A program made the translations under genes and the position numbers. From contig NZ_CP060497.1 in assembly GCF_014334135.1 (NCBI RefSeq), positions 4,588,001 to 4,652,000 on the forward strand: DNA of 64,000 bases. Reading direction: 5' to 3'. The notes below the pieces were generated by a model that was given only the letters and a program-made list of their open reading frames with translations, was not told where the DNA came from and made no database searches. This document shows positions 47,001-51,783 of the stretch, piece by piece (positions within the stretch are counted from its first letter, which is position 1; each line of letters begins with the position of its first letter). Source of the stretch: Olivibacter sp. SDN3 (GTDB lineage: Bacteria > Bacteroidota > Bacteroidia > Sphingobacteriales > Sphingobacteriaceae).

Positions 47001-47792
47001 TCATACCGTAACTTCTCCCTTAATTTTCTCCACAAACCCGGGTATTTTATCGAAAAAATCCGGTTCTTGAAGTAATTTGACAAAAGCACTTCCCACAATC
47101 GCTGCATCTGCATAAGTCAACGCATGTTCAAAACTTTCGTGATCGGAAATACCAAAGCCTATAGTCAATGGATTGCGCAAATTTAATTTTTTAATTCTAT
47201 CAAAATAGGCCTGAGAACTTTCAGAAACTGCCAGATTCTTTCCTGTGGTAGAAGATGACGAAACCATATAAATAAAACCGGTACTTAATGCGTCAATTTT
47301 ACGTACCCGCTCTTCCGAAGTTTGCGGTGTAATCAAAAATATATTACTTACATTATACTTTTTAAATATATCGTGATAATGCTCTTCATATTCATAAACG
47401 GGAAGATCCGGCACAATTACGCCGTCTACACCAACTTCTGCGCAAGCACGGCAAAAGCGTTCTACACCATATTGAAGCATTGGATTAACATACCCCATAA
47501 GCAAGACAGGAATACTGACCTGCTGCCGTAATGTTTTTAATTGGTTGAACAGACACTCCAACGACATGCCGTTTTTTAAAGCCTGTTCGGAGCTATGCTG
47601 TATAACGGGGCCATCAGCTACCGGATCTGAATAAGGGAACCCAATTTCTAAAAAATCAACTCCAGAGGCTTGTAAGGTTTTCGCCAGTTCAATGGTATCA
47701 TCTAAACCCGGATACCCCGCTGTATAATAGATAGAAAGTAGTTTTTTCTTGCCTTTACTTTCAAAAAGTTCATTAATTCTATTCATTATCAA
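47001..47792 (-). CDS. trpA: Tryptophan synthase alpha subunit
   Basis: A 263-residue TIM-barrel protein that cleaves indole-3-glycerol phosphate to indole and glyceraldehyde 3-phosphate. The catalytic Glu is in VDFLEIGFPYSDPVADGPVIQ (about residue 48), with the catalytic Asp in the same DPVADGP loop. The phosphate-binding Gly residues are in VSSSSTTG and IGFGISDHES. It is the last gene of trpDFBA, 26 bases after trpB, and passes indole to TrpB through the subunit tunnel. No clear terminator follows; only a 6-bp GGGCTA/TAGCCC hairpin is seen near 46886-46917. Confidence 0.96.
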   Translation of the reverse strand: MIMNRINELFESKGKKKLLSIYYTAGYPGLDDTIELAKTLQASGVDFLEIGFPYSDPVADGPVIQHSSEQALKNGMSLECLFNQLKTLRQQVSIPVLLMGYVNPMLQYGVERFCRACAEVGVDGVIVPDLPVYEYEEHYHDIFKKYNVSNIFLITPQTSEERVRKIDALSTGFIYMVSSSSTTGKNLAVSESSQAYFDRIKKLNLRNPLTIGFGISDHESFEHALTYADAAIVGSAFVKLLQEPDFFDKIPGFVEKIKGEVTV

Positions 47793-47818: not shown

Positions 47819-49003
47819 CTAAAAATTAAAATGCTTCATATAATTATCCAAATCCTTGTCACCTCTACCTGATAAGCAGACAACTACATTATCACCCTTT
47901 TCAAAAGACATTTTTTCCAATTGCGCCAACGCATGCGCACTCTCTATAGCTGGTATAATGCCTTCTAGACGTGTTAGCAAAAGTCCGGCATTCATCGCAT
48001 CTTGATCCGTTATACTTACATATTGAGCTCTTCCTATCTTATGAAGAAAAGCGTGCTGTGGACCAATTCCCGGATAATCAAGTCCAGCTGAAATAGAATA
48101 CGGCTCTATTACCTGTCCGTCCACTGTTTGCATTAGAATCGTATGACTCCCATGCAAAACTCCTTCCTTTCCCAAAACTGAGGTGGCAGCAGAATAGCCA
48201 CTGTCAATTCCTTTTCCGGCAGCTTCAGCAGCAATTAATTTCACCTGTTCATCTGCTAGGAAATGATAGAACATGCCAATGGCATTACTCCCTCCCCCTA
48301 CACACGCGATGGCATAGTCTGGTGTTTCCTTTCCTGTTTTTTCAAGCAATTGTCTACGAGTTTCGGAAGAGATAACTGATTGAAATCGTGCAACCATGTC
48401 TGGGTATGGATGAGGGCCAACTACCGAACCGATAATGTAATGCGTGTCTACGGGATTATTAATCCAATCGCGCATGGCTTCATTTGTAGCGTCTTTTAAC
48501 GTCTTACTACCCGAGGCGGCTGGACGTACCTCTGCTCCCATCATTTTCATTCGTGCAACATTGGGTGACTGCCTTTTAATGTCAATTTCACCCATATAAA
48601 CCACACACTCCAACCCCATTAAAGCACATACGGTGGCTGTTGCTACTCCATGTTGTCCGGCTCCGGTTTCGGCAATTATCCGCTTCTTTCCTAAACGTTT
48701 TGCCAGCAAAATCTGCCCTATTGTATTATTGATTTTATGTGCTCCTGTGTGATTTAAATCTTCTCTTTTTAAAAAAATTTGTGCACCATATCTTTCCGAC
48801 AAACGCTTGGCTAAGTATAGAGGAGACGGCCTACCTACATAATCCTTCAAAAGACTTTCAAACTCTTTCAAAAACGAATCGCTATTGATTATCTCCAAAT
48901 AATTTAGTCGAAGTTCCTCGATGTTGGGGTACATCATTTCGGGGATATACGCTCCGCCGAAAATACCATAATAACCTTTTTCATTCACTTGATATTTACT
49001 CAT
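47819..49003 (-). CDS. trpB: Tryptophan synthase beta subunit
   Basis: A 394-residue PLP enzyme that condenses indole with serine. The PLP lysine is in [15 protein letters not shown] (about residue 88), the catalytic Glu is in [17 protein letters not shown], and the phosphate-binding glycine loop is [13 protein letters not shown]. Full length for the TrpB1 type, with the TrpA-interacting N-terminus [15 protein letters not shown]. It lies between trpF (10 bases) and trpA in the operon and is therefore under the attenuator upstream of trpD. Confidence 0.97.
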
Positions 49004-49013
49004 TTTATCTTAT

Positions 49014-49628
49014 TTAGTAGTCAAATACCGACTGTAATAATTTAACATCTTTAATTCCCGGGCTCAGTTCAAATCTCGAATTCACATCTACGGCAAACAA
49101 ACGTTGGTCTTTCAATTTATATACATCTGCTATATTTTTTTCACTTATCCCTCCGCTTAAAAAGTAAGGTTTATCCAAAGTATATCCATTTAACAAATTC
49201 CAGTCAAAACGGAGTCCAGTTCCTCCATAGGCTTTATCTCTAGTGTCAAAAAGAAAATAATCGACATTATCTTTATAGGCATCAAGCTCCGACCAGTTAA
49301 AACCTGGCGCTATACCGAAGGCTTTGATTGTTAAAACCCCAGTGGATGTCTTCACTTTGTCTACAAAAGCAGGATGCTCATTTCCATGTAGCTGTATTAC
49401 ATCTAAGCCGTAAGCCGACACAGATCTCTGGATATTTGGTAATGTGTCATTAACAAAAACCCCAACTTTCTTTATATTTGTTAAATTTTTGATGAACATT
49501 TGAGATAAATCGCCAACATAACGTGGCGATTTATCATAAAATATAAAACCTAAGTAGTCGGGATTTAATGACAGCACGTCCAATATATTATCGGGATATT
49601 TCATCCCACAAACTTTTACTCTAAGCAT
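49014..49628 (-). CDS. trpF: Phosphoribosylanthranilate isomerase
   Basis: A 204-residue TIM-barrel enzyme performing the Amadori rearrangement of PRA to CdRP. The catalytic Cys is in LRVKVCGMKYPDNI (residue 7). LGFIFYDKSPRYVG follows, the catalytic Asp is in FLFDTRDKAYGGTGLRFDW (about residue 127), and the phosphate loop is FLSGGISEKN. It ends 10 bases before trpB and starts 5 bases after trpD. No trpC gene lies between trpD and trpF, unlike the usual order. Confidence 0.95.
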   Translation of the reverse strand: MLRVKVCGMKYPDNILDVLSLNPDYLGFIFYDKSPRYVGDLSQMFIKNLTNIKKVGVFVNDTLPNIQRSVSAYGLDVIQLHGNEHPAFVDKVKTSTGVLTIKAFGIAPGFNWSELDAYKDNVDYFLFDTRDKAYGGTGLRFDWNLLNGYTLDKPYFLSGGISEKNIADVYKLKDQRLFAVDVNSRFELSPGIKDVKLLQSVFDY

Positions 49629-49633
49629 ATTAC

Positions 49634-50638
49634 TCAGTACAAAGCCTTTTCTTTGTTCACTAATTTATTAAAACTATTCAACGCTCTTTTTGATAAAAGG
49701 GCGTCCTCAGCCTCTAAATAACAGTCTTCGAAAGACTTGTCAGGACAAATAGTCCGAATAGCTATAGCCGCATTGGATAAAACCACCTGCTGTTGCTCCT
49801 TACTGGCATTTCCCTTTAGTACTGCAACAAAGATTCCGGCAGCCTCCTCAATGGTTTCTCCGCCGCTTATTGCTGTGGCGTCTACACGTTGAAAACCTAT
49901 TTTCTCCAAGGTGACGTATTGTTCGCCCTCATTATTAATCAATTTAAAATCTCCTGTAAGTGATATCTCGTCATAGCCGTCTAACGCATGCAATATAGTA
50001 TATTGTTTATTGCTTCTTTGGTAGAGATAACCATATAGACGTGCCAACTCCAGACTAAAAACACCTACCGATTGATAGCTTGGCTTAGCAGGGTTTACCA
50101 ATGGCCCTAACATATTAAAAAAAGTTTTCACACCTAACTCACGCCTAACCGGTGCAACAGTTTTCATTGCCGGATGAAATAAAGGAGCATGTAGAAAGCA
50201 AATGTTGGAACTCTCTAAGCTTCTGTAAATTTCTTTTTCATCATTCGAAAATCGATATCCTAGAAATTCCATTACATTAGACGATCCGCACCCAGAAGAA
50301 ACCCCATAGTTACCATGTTTAGCCACGTGGTAACCAGCTCCTGCCACTACAAAGGATGCTAATGTTGAAATATTAAAGGTATTCTTTCCATCGCCACCGG
50401 TACCACAAAGATCGATAAGTTTATATTCATTAAGGTTGACTTCCAAACAAAGATCCAACATAGCATCACGAAAGCCGGCAAGCTCTTCCACGGTAATATT
50501 ACGCATGCAGTAGGCTGTCATGAAAGCGGCCATTTGCGAACTATTATATTTCCCTAATGTGATATTGGTTAATATATCGTAAGCTTCAGCTCTTGTAAAG
50601 GTTTTACTTTCGAACAAATGTGCCAGTATATGTTTCAT
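49634..50638 (-). CDS. trpD: Anthranilate phosphoribosyltransferase
   Basis: A 334-residue enzyme that transfers phosphoribose from PRPP to anthranilate. The PRPP-binding loop is DLCGTGGDGKNTFNIST (about residues 75-91). KHGNYGVSSGCGSSNVMEFLG contains the anthranilate-site residues, and PVRRELGVKTFFNMLGPLVNP is the conserved TrpD motif. The ATG at 50638 (MKHILAHLF) matches the usual N-terminus; a TTG 36 bases upstream would add 12 atypical residues. It is the first structural gene of trpDFBA. Upstream lies a leader peptide and attenuator. trpE, trpG and trpC must be elsewhere. Confidence 0.95.
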   Translation of the reverse strand: MKHILAHLFESKTFTRAEAYDILTNITLGKYNSSQMAAFMTAYCMRNITVEELAGFRDAMLDLCLEVNLNEYKLIDLCGTGGDGKNTFNISTLASFVVAGAGYHVAKHGNYGVSSGCGSSNVMEFLGYRFSNDEKEIYRSLESSNICFLHAPLFHPAMKTVAPVRRELGVKTFFNMLGPLVNPAKPSYQSVGVFSLELARLYGYLYQRSNKQYTILHALDGYDEISLTGDFKLINNEGEQYVTLEKIGFQRVDATAISGGETIEEAAGIFVAVLKGNASKEQQQVVLSNAAIAIRTICPDKSFEDCYLEAEDALLSKRALNSFNKLVNKEKALY

Positions 50639-50720
50639 CTGTAATTGCGTTTGATGTGAATTATTTTGTGTCAATAAATTAAATTATGTTTCCGGTGAAT
50701 CTATGTGGCTTTTACCACAC

Positions 50721-50751
50721 AAAAAAAGGCTTGCGTTACGGCAAGCCTTTT
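50721..50751 (-). terminator. trp attenuator terminator (3:4 hairpin)
   Basis: AAAAGGCTTGC (50751-50741) and GCAAGCCTTTT (50734-50724) pair perfectly over 11 bases around a 6-base loop and run into seven consecutive T on the minus strand. It lies between the leader peptide and trpD, so it must be read through for trp expression. Confidence 0.9.
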
Positions 50752-50808
50752 GTTACTATAATTAAATATCACTACAAAATGGTATTTGCCATAAAGTTAT
50801 TCTTTATG
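50740..50808 (-). promoter_or_regulatory. trp attenuator: 1:2 hairpin and competing 2:3 antiterminator
   Basis: Region 1 CATAAAG (50808-50802) pairs with CTTTATG (50796-50790), and the 5-base loop contains most of the leader stop codon. Region 2 GGCAAATACCATTTT (50790-50776) can instead pair with region 3 AAAAGGCTTGCC (50751-50740). TTTT:AAAA, CC:GG and GGCAA:TTGCC give 11 pairs with a small bulge and internal loop. Region 3 is also the first arm of the terminator, so the two structures exclude each other. Confidence 0.82.
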
Positions 50809-50844
50809 CCACCACCAACTTTGATATGCGACTCTTATTTCCAT
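50797..50844 (-). CDS. trpL: trp leader peptide with three tandem Trp codons
   Basis: A 15-residue frame, MEIRVAYQSWWWHKE, has TGG codons 10-12 at 50817-50809 and its TAA at 50799-50797. Three successive Trp codons by chance are very unlikely. The stop codon lies in the loop of hairpin 1:2, and the antiterminator and terminator follow in the right order. A ribosome stalled at the Trp codons would cover region 1 and leave region 2 free to pair with region 3, allowing transcription into trpD. A ribosome that finishes would cover region 2 and let the terminator form. AGGA lies 5 bases before the ATG. Mechanism is established knowledge from enteric trp operons; its action here is inference. Confidence 0.85.
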   Translation of the reverse strand: MEIRVAYQSWWWHKE

Positions 50845-50853
50845 TTTATCCTA

Positions 50854-50885
50854 CAAATATGCTCAATAAGATTTACATATGCAAA
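50854..50885 (-). promoter_or_regulatory. Candidate trp operon promoter TTTG-N20-CATATTTG
   Basis: On the minus strand TTTG (50885-50882) and CATATTTG (50861-50854) are spaced by 20 bases; the -7 box differs from TAnnTTTG at its first base. It lies 9 bases upstream of the leader peptide start, so the leader transcript would begin close to its ATG. Confidence 0.5.
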
Positions 50886-50964
50886 TGATTTTTGAGGTGC
50901 TTAGTAAATCTAAAAATACAAGAGACTCTAAATGCTATATCGCTAGCATATCAATGGATTTAAA

Positions 50965-51783
50965 CTACTTAACCAATGGATCTTTCTCACGTGCAAATAA
51001 TTGAAATACTTTCCTATCTACCCATGCTGGAAAAAGCTTATTCATCCATACAGCCAACTTTCCTTGTCTGGTCATGATAAGCGTGCGTTTTCTATCCTGA
51101 ATGCCTTGTATTATACGTGCTGCAACCTCTTCAGCAGTCATCATTTTTTTTTCGTTCATACTTGTCTCACCAAACTGCTCTCCATTTTTATCGAATGCTG
51201 TATTGCGGATATTTGAAGCCGTAAAACCAGGGCAGGCAACCATTACATGCAATTTTGTTTTTAAGTTCTCTACACGTAAAGACTCCATAAAACCATTCAT
51301 AGCAAATTTAGAAGCAGAGTATCCCGTACGTCCAGGCAGGCCTCTATAACCTGCAATCGATGATACTCCCACAACCGAACCGCCATTGATCAATAATTCA
51401 GGTAAAGCAAACTTAGTGCAATACACTGTGCCCCAAAAGTTTACATCCATTAAATTTCTCAATACCCTTAAGTCAAGTTCATTAAATAAGGCCCTCATAC
51501 TGACACCAGCATTATTGATCAACACGTCTATTGTTTGAAAGGTTAAAAGTGCCTGTTGTACTAGATGTTTGCAATCGTCTTCTTTCGAAACATCACATTG
51601 CACAGCAACCACTTTAATAGCAAATTCTCTTTCCAGATCTTGGGCTATTTTACATAATACTACGTATTTTCTTGCCCCCAAAACCAAATTAGCTCCTTTT
51701 GCAGCCAAATTTCGCGCTAAAGCCAAACCTATTCCCGAAGATGCCCCAGTTATAATAACTGTTTTATTATTAAATGATTTCAA
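50965..51783 (-). CDS. SDR family oxidoreductase
   Basis: A 272-residue classical short-chain dehydrogenase/reductase. The cofactor motif TGASSGIGLALARNLAAKGA (about residues 11-30) is followed by NNAGVS (about 91-96), the catalytic Ser in VVGVSSIAGYRG and the Tyr-Lys pair in GYSASKFAMNGF (YxxxK). The C-terminal 40 residues include a basic, partly hydrophobic segment (AVWMNKLFPAWVDRKVFQLF) that may contact the membrane. Substrate unknown. Single gene on the minus strand; its 3' end is close to the trp promoter region. Confidence 0.9.
   Translation of the reverse strand: MKSFNNKTVIITGASSGIGLALARNLAAKGANLVLGARKYVVLCKIAQDLEREFAIKVVAVQCDVSKEDDCKHLVQQALLTFQTIDVLINNAGVSMRALFNELDLRVLRNLMDVNFWGTVYCTKFALPELLINGGSVVGVSSIAGYRGLPGRTGYSASKFAMNGFMESLRVENLKTKLHVMVACPGFTASNIRNTAFDKNGEQFGETSMNEKKMMTAEEVAARIIQGIQDRKRTLIMTRQGKLAVWMNKLFPAWVDRKVFQLFAREKDPLVK

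Follow-up and report, generated by a model that had tools for sequence, protein, structure and literature searches.

A 64-kb window (the whole stretch of Olivibacter DNA analyzed here) carries, upstream of trpD, a sequence that we read with a probability of roughly 0.93 as a ribosome-mediated transcription attenuator of trpDFBA, in which a ribosome positioned on three tandem Trp codons probably decides whether the operon is transcribed. The leader, the helices, the terminator, their conservation, and the position of the promoter motif come from the sequence and its comparison with relatives. As read directly, the attenuator occupies 50884-50721 of the minus strand, between a short-chain dehydrogenase gene (ending at 50965) and trpD, with its seven-T end 82 nt upstream of the latter (Table 1). 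It is a known kind of switch, found in a lineage not accepted by the current model of the RNA family at its cut-off.

Table 1. Features of the trpDFBA attenuator and operon (window positions 50,884 down to 47,001) and of the second Trp leader in the genome.
Feature	Position	Strand	Basis or remarks
-33 element TTG	50882-50884	-	predicted primary sigma factor promoter; TTG 18-22 nt 5' of box in 74/79 trpD leaders
-7 box CATATTTG	50854-50861	-	consensus TAnnTTTG, first base deviates; nAnnTTTG in 76/79 trpD leaders
predicted 5' UTR, 5 nt	50845-50849	-	predicted transcription start 50849, from -7 box position -12 to -5
leader ORF MEIRVAYQSWWWHKE, 15 codons + TAA	50797-50844	-	direct reading; relatives' leaders
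three tandem Trp codons (TGG)	50809-50817	-	direct reading
apical 1:2 hairpin CATAAAG/CTTTATG	50790-50808	-	fold and covariation; stop codon in loop
extended 1:2 helix	50766-50827	-	codons before and at Trp run with region 2 tail; swap test
region 2, GGCAA..CC..TTTTG	50775-50790	-	potential partner of region 3; 92.7% of core cells paired
3:4 terminator hairpin, 11 bp, 6-nt loop	50724-50751	-	99.5% of cells paired; covariation
run of seven T	50721-50727	-	direct reading
trpD, first operon gene	49634-50638	-	Pfam PF00591 + PF02885
trpF	49014-49628	-	Pfam PF00697
trpB	47819-49003	-	Pfam PF00291 and operon position
trpA	47001-47786	-	Pfam PF00290
trpEGC Trp leader MTVETKDIRNWWWHAKRSAGSIY and terminator	L086:2384-2533 = G000:C1:1715883-1716032	+	other build than trpD leader

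The elements named in the preliminary description, that is, a promoter-like pair, a 15-codon frame with three TGG codons, a stop codon placed in a hairpin loop, and a perfect 11-bp terminator followed by seven T, are all present on direct reading, and Pfam supports the assignment of the downstream genes as trpD, trpF, trpB, and trpA. A spacer of 20 nt separates the TTG from CATATTTG, the leader opens with the ATG at 50844, and its TAA stop falls within the loop AATAA. The terminator arms (50751-50741 and 50734-50724) are paired at 11 of 11 positions, four of the seven T take part in the hairpin by pairing to four A in the opposite arm, and no second terminator was found in the region 50500-51100 (shuffle mean 0.1). 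The run of Trp codons is weak evidence by itself, because TGGTGGTGG occurs three times in the window against 0.21 expected; hence, the weight for the leader rests on its conservation in relatives.

A protein search with trpD, from which the best 80 loci were kept, returned another Olivibacter as the nearest relative (81% identity), along with Parapedobacter, Sphingobacterium, Mucilaginibacter, Pedobacter, and others, some of these loci being metagenome bins; a position of the window in or near Sphingobacteriaceae is indicated by these names. The tandem Trp codons were conserved: a leader with a Trp run and a terminator-like hairpin precedes trpD in 79 of the 80 loci, and the remaining one (L003), which lies at a contig end with only 183 nt before trpD, was left out of all leader counts. 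Among the resulting 80 leaders (79 loci plus the window), 78 have WWW and two WW, and all of them have a terminator-like hairpin between leader and trpD. The number of codons before the Trp run is nine, as in the window, in 62 of the 79 leaders having an ATG and 7, 8, 10, or 11 in the rest. The genes trpF and trpB follow trpD in 77/80 loci, and neither trpE nor trpG was seen upstream of trpD within the fetched stretch (up to 1.5 kb) of the 80 loci. A short frame in locus L145 was rejected, as the stretch resembles coding sequence.

The fold of the window itself is more stable than its shuffles for the terminator (z = -5.1) and for the 1:2 stretch (z = -4.0); the stretch able to form 2:3 but deprived of region 4 does not exceed its shuffles in stability (z = -0.67, with 48 of 200 shuffles equally stable). 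Helix statistics were computed from an 80-row leader alignment against shuffles that do not allow for relatedness. Helix 3:4 is paired in 99.5% of cells, 42 of which are changed on both sides, a count matched by 0/500 shuffles, and one of its pairs is G-C, C-G, or A-U depending on the leader; by other measures, the number of pairs changed on both sides was reached by 41/500 shuffles and that of further pair types by 107/500. For the apical 1:2 hairpin, 80.3% of cells are paired (68.1% if the register of the window is used) and 57 show changes on both sides, again matched by 0/500 shuffles, and here the other measures were reached by 198/500 (pairs changed on both sides) and 31/500 (further pair types). 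The Yanofsky-type logic proposed in the preliminary description is supported both by the Trp-run leaders in 79/80 relatives and by covariation in 3:4 and 1:2. The covariation looked for in the third helix did not appear: the 2:3 core (GGCAA with TTGCC) is conserved, with 92.7% of its cells paired compared with 18-51% after sliding, but no pair is changed on both sides in the 80 rows, and shuffles pair equally well because both sides of 2:3 hardly vary. Regions 2 and 3 of the window had been described as pairing over 11 bases; they can indeed pair, but as 5 + 2 + 4-5 pairs with bulges rather than as one unbroken helix. RNAalifold, applied to the leader alignment, recovered the 3:4 helix only.

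The apical 1:2 hairpin alone would not exclude 2:3, because the two overlap by a single base. A switch made by the Trp codons alone, pairing with region 2, was considered and rejected, since this pairing is possible in 80/80 leaders against 91% in the control, hardly above it. It was replaced by an extended 1:2 helix, formed between the tail of region 2 and the codons that lead up to and include the Trp run. Such an extended helix would exclude 2:3. When helix sides were swapped among 16 divergent leaders, the native combination was better in 82.5% (1:2), 60% (2:3), and 90% (3:4) of comparisons; for the extended 1:2 helix, native beat swapped in 81% (permutation 0/5000; 28 representatives), and 14 of 28 single leaders passed their own shuffle test at 0.05.

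The codons ahead of the Trp run bear on one rival explanation. In the arrest peptide TnaC, free tryptophan is sensed by way of the nascent chain, and the leader could be imagined to act in the same manner. Of 68 distinct trpD leaders, 52 have an Asn at position -3 relative to the Trp run, encoded by both of its codons (the window itself, 50844-50818, lacks it), and 15 of the 18 distinct leaders from other families have one at -2, as a selected peptide would have it; however, these codons also belong to the extended 1:2 helix, from which the conservation may come, and their value as a sign of selection on the leader peptide is thereby weakened. The Asn conservation may reflect either the 1:2 helix or the peptide. 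Additionally, the nascent chain at the stall would comprise only about 10 residues, and the helices fit stalling at the Trp codons, so that we consider an arrest peptide very unlikely.

The trpDFBA leader is not the only Trp leader in this genome. The genes trpE, trpG, and trpC lie elsewhere, from G000:C1:1716063, behind a Trp leader and terminator of different build, and among the 50 genomes that gave a strong trpE match, 30 trpE loci were fetched, every one with a Trp leader, reading WWW in 26 and WWR, WWY, YWW, and WCW in the other four. In 27/30 of these leaders, a region 2 (for example, GCGCCGGG or GCGTCGGG), itself a copy of region 4, lies 10-17 nt behind the Trp run, where, we infer, it would be covered by a ribosome that has moved past the run. 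The 2:3 pairing beats shuffles at 0.05 in 16 of the 30 leaders, the value for the window genome's own (L088) being 0.11, and one leader (L103) has CCCGAUG in region 3 together with CAUCGGG in region 2. Two others (L089 and L090) have near-identical letters in region 2, shifted by one base relative to the Trp run and thus in different reading frames; these letters therefore seem to be kept as RNA.

The position of the promoter relative to the leader start is a feature common to both types of leader. The window promoter fits the -33/-7 form of Bacteroidota, and a sigma-70 scan placed no site at that position. In Flavobacterium psychrophilum, the -7 box is reported at -12 to -5 (PMC9723704), and in F. 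johnsoniae 4 or 5 nt are reported between the -7 box and the transcription start (PMC6847099). Leaving out one leader without an ATG within 21-36 nt (L036), the motif nAnnTTTG lies at most 25 nt from the leader ATG in 76 of 79 trpD leaders against 10.9% in shuffles, and the box accompanied by a TTG 18-22 nt further upstream was found in 74/79 against 1.6%. Where the box is present, it ends 5-19 nt before the ATG, so that the 5' UTR is predicted to measure 1-15 nt, with a median of 6.5 nt. The trpE leaders, two of which (2/30) start with GTG, carry the box 5-8 nt before the start in 24/30, 19 of them with TTG, and a variant box at 4-5 nt in the other six, with a predicted 5' UTR of 0-4 nt overall. 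Likewise, in 19 leaders of other families matched by the Rfam family Bacteroid-trp (RF01692; 18 from family f4 and one from f5, with L136, of the window's own family, left out), the end of the box and the ATG are 4-20 nt apart, and the TTG is present in 13. Altogether, 119 of the 128 leaders have the box at a distance of 4-20 nt upstream of their start, and six more have the variant box at 4-5 nt.

No Shine-Dalgarno-like word was found inside the predicted 5' UTR of the 119 leaders with the box, but such a word does occur within 20 nt upstream of the ATG in two of the three boxless trpD leaders (L037 and L081). The window has an AGGA before its leader ATG, but upstream of the predicted transcription start. 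Ribosomes of this class are reported not to recognize Shine-Dalgarno sequences (PMC9976891). The preliminary description had pointed to the timing of leader translation under such conditions, and the very short predicted 5' UTR would offer a partial answer: the predicted mRNA 5' end lies nearly next to the start codon, and this proximity may account for translation of the leader without the usual ribosome-binding signal.

This promoter geometry looks unusual for the phylum. Published maps were used as the background of distances because the promoters detected in 400 kb of the genome were too few alone: these 17 have a median distance to the start of 41 nt, with 2/17 within 8 nt and 4/17 within 19 nt. 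In F. johnsoniae, 87% of predicted transcripts are reported to have leaders longer than 10 nt (PMC6847099), so that the predicted 5' UTR of 10 nt or less in 56 of 76 trpD leaders, which are related to one another, compares with 13% of transcripts. About 3.7% of 5' UTRs are reported to be shorter than 10 nt in Bacteroides thetaiotaomicron (PMC7366714), and for F. psychrophilum a median of 24 nt with 5.5% leaderless is given (PMC9723704). The literature searched, mostly without subscription papers and supplements, yielded no statement on a short 5' UTR of trp leaders in Bacteroidota.

These promoters also weigh on another rival explanation, namely that the hairpin merely terminates the short-chain dehydrogenase gene, that the leader frame arose by chance, and that trpD has its own promoter further downstream. 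The terminator does sit behind the dehydrogenase gene on the same strand, and TGG runs, with three copies, are not rare in the window. Nevertheless, relatives preserve the combination of promoter motif, leader, and terminator before trpD, the leader codons belong to a covarying helix (the extended 1:2), and no nAnnTTTG box was seen by eye at 50720-50639, between terminator and trpD, which leaves this explanation with scarcely any credit.

To follow the attenuator through the family, a covariance model built from the trpD leaders (R1), whose E-values are rough, was run against 101 family genomes and matched 94 of them at E <= 0.1 and 80 at E <= 1e-5, the matches not being individually tied to trpD. 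In the 61 genomes searched with TrpE, R1 matched at E <= 1e-4 in 45 of the 50 having a strong trpE match and in 0 of the 11 without; the leader therefore goes with the pathway. The five trpE-bearing genomes in which R1 gave no strong match are G002, G027, and G044, which belong to one genus, and G008 and G032. R1 also matches some trpE leaders at lower score, for example at G011:C1:995662 and at G038:C12:116336, beside trpE.

Such leaders had been presented in the preliminary description as much less well described in this phylum than in proteobacteria, which overstated their rarity: Bacteroid-trp was listed in 2010 (Weinberg et al.) as a likely cis-regulatory RNA of Bacteroidetes (PMC2864571), it is discussed as an attenuator in F. 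psychrophilum (PMC6414381), and leader-peptide attenuation has been noted upstream of amino-acid operons in the same species (PMC9723704). The window sequence aligns to RF01692 end to end (model 1-131), before trpDFBA, with 39.1 bits and E 0.035, below the 49-bit cut-off. Both systems have Trp codons in a long hairpin, the AAAAGGCUUG terminator arm, and a position upstream of trp genes; the codons before the Trp run number 7-8 in 18 of the 19 leaders from other families, 10 in one, and nine in the window. In 198 genomes of the phylum, RF01692, run with stricter filters, matched 20 at E <= 0.01 (18 in f4, one in f5, and one in the window's family) and exceeded its cut-off in 15 genomes, all of family f4. 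A second match in the window genome (G000:C1:3159381) was discarded: the site shows a hairpin and a T run but lacks a Trp leader. Moreover, RF01692 produced no match at the trpE leader in the whole-genome search, and a direct Rfam scan of that leader returned no family at its cut-off, the lowest E (0.016) belonging to Leu_leader with 22.5 bits against 50. The leader set obtained from the comparison could serve to widen the Rfam model.

T-boxes and TRAP regulate trp genes in other phyla. Sensing of tryptophan or tRNA-Trp without leader translation, by a T-box, a TRAP site, or a riboswitch, is nonetheless highly improbable here, as the Rfam scan of the window at E up to 1 returned Bacteroid-trp and one enterobacterial sRNA model only, with no T-box, and the Trp-run frame is kept in 80/80 trpD leaders.

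Frames resembling leader peptides were also observed before other amino-acid genes of the genome. The gene hisG is preceded by a His-rich frame, MIKVFTHHIHFHHRPCGDM (L162:1110-1233), with boxes 6 and 34 nt before its ATG; from the farther box, the 5' UTR would measure about 30 nt. No terminator with a T run was found between this frame and hisG. A prephenate dehydratase gene is preceded by the Phe/Tyr-rich MKYTTAYWFFGYFYFSSKSRD (L165, reverse complement, ~1300-1500), with a box 18 nt before the ATG and, after the frame, a GTCCCGG/CCGGGAC hairpin with nine T. Upstream of ilvD (L163), the search for such a leader frame was negative, and the other PF00920 locus (L164) shows Leu-rich frames without promoter or T run. 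The hisG and prephenate dehydratase frames hint at a short 5' UTR as a general habit of leader peptides in this genome.

The E. coli trpL leader combines tandem Trp codons with the alternative helices 1:2, 2:3, and 3:4 and a terminator with a U run. The window shares these features with the enterobacterial attenuator, 2:3 as a pairing that can form, and differs from it in a predicted 5' UTR of about 5 nt without a Shine-Dalgarno-like word, in three Trp codons instead of the two of E. coli trpL, in trpD rather than trpE as the first gene, and in the presence of a probable second attenuator, on trpEGC, in the same genome. Counterparts to two of these differences have been described outside the phylum. 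The leader RNA of Sinorhizobium meliloti trpL is reported to begin at the AUG, where the start in the window is predicted, and that attenuator stands before trpE(G) (PMC7298713). Corynebacterium diphtheriae is reported to have two trp operons, each with its own candidate attenuator and with gene sets other than those found here (PMC1262725).

Taking the attenuator reading of trpDFBA forward, we infer the transcription start, the translation of the leader, the stalling, and the response to tryptophan to proceed as follows. Transcription would start about 5 nt before the leader AUG, and a ribosome would load on the nascent 5' end without Shine-Dalgarno pairing and travel nine codons to the Trp run. 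When charged tRNA-Trp is short, the ribosome would stall on the run and cover the 5' side of the 1:2 helix, whereupon region 2 would pair with region 3, no terminator would form, and trpDFBA would be transcribed. When charged tRNA-Trp is plentiful, the ribosome would reach the stop codon in the 1:2 loop, with region 2 either covered or back in 1:2; the 3:4 terminator would form and transcription would end near 50721.

Together, these observations incline us, if only slightly, toward a joint reading in which the trp attenuators of Bacteroidota rely on leader mRNAs that are leaderless or nearly so, the ribosome loading without Shine-Dalgarno pairing at the emerging 5' end and keeping in step with the polymerase over 7-11 codons, mostly nine. 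In Sphingobacteriaceae, the same reading would comprise two parallel attenuators of different build, one on trpDFBA with a 1:2 hairpin and one on trpEGC, whose region 2 duplicates region 4 and would be covered by a ribosome that has moved beyond the Trp run. Attenuation needs prompt loading of the first ribosome and, if this reading is true, transcription that starts on the AUG or immediately upstream of it would satisfy that need in a simple way.
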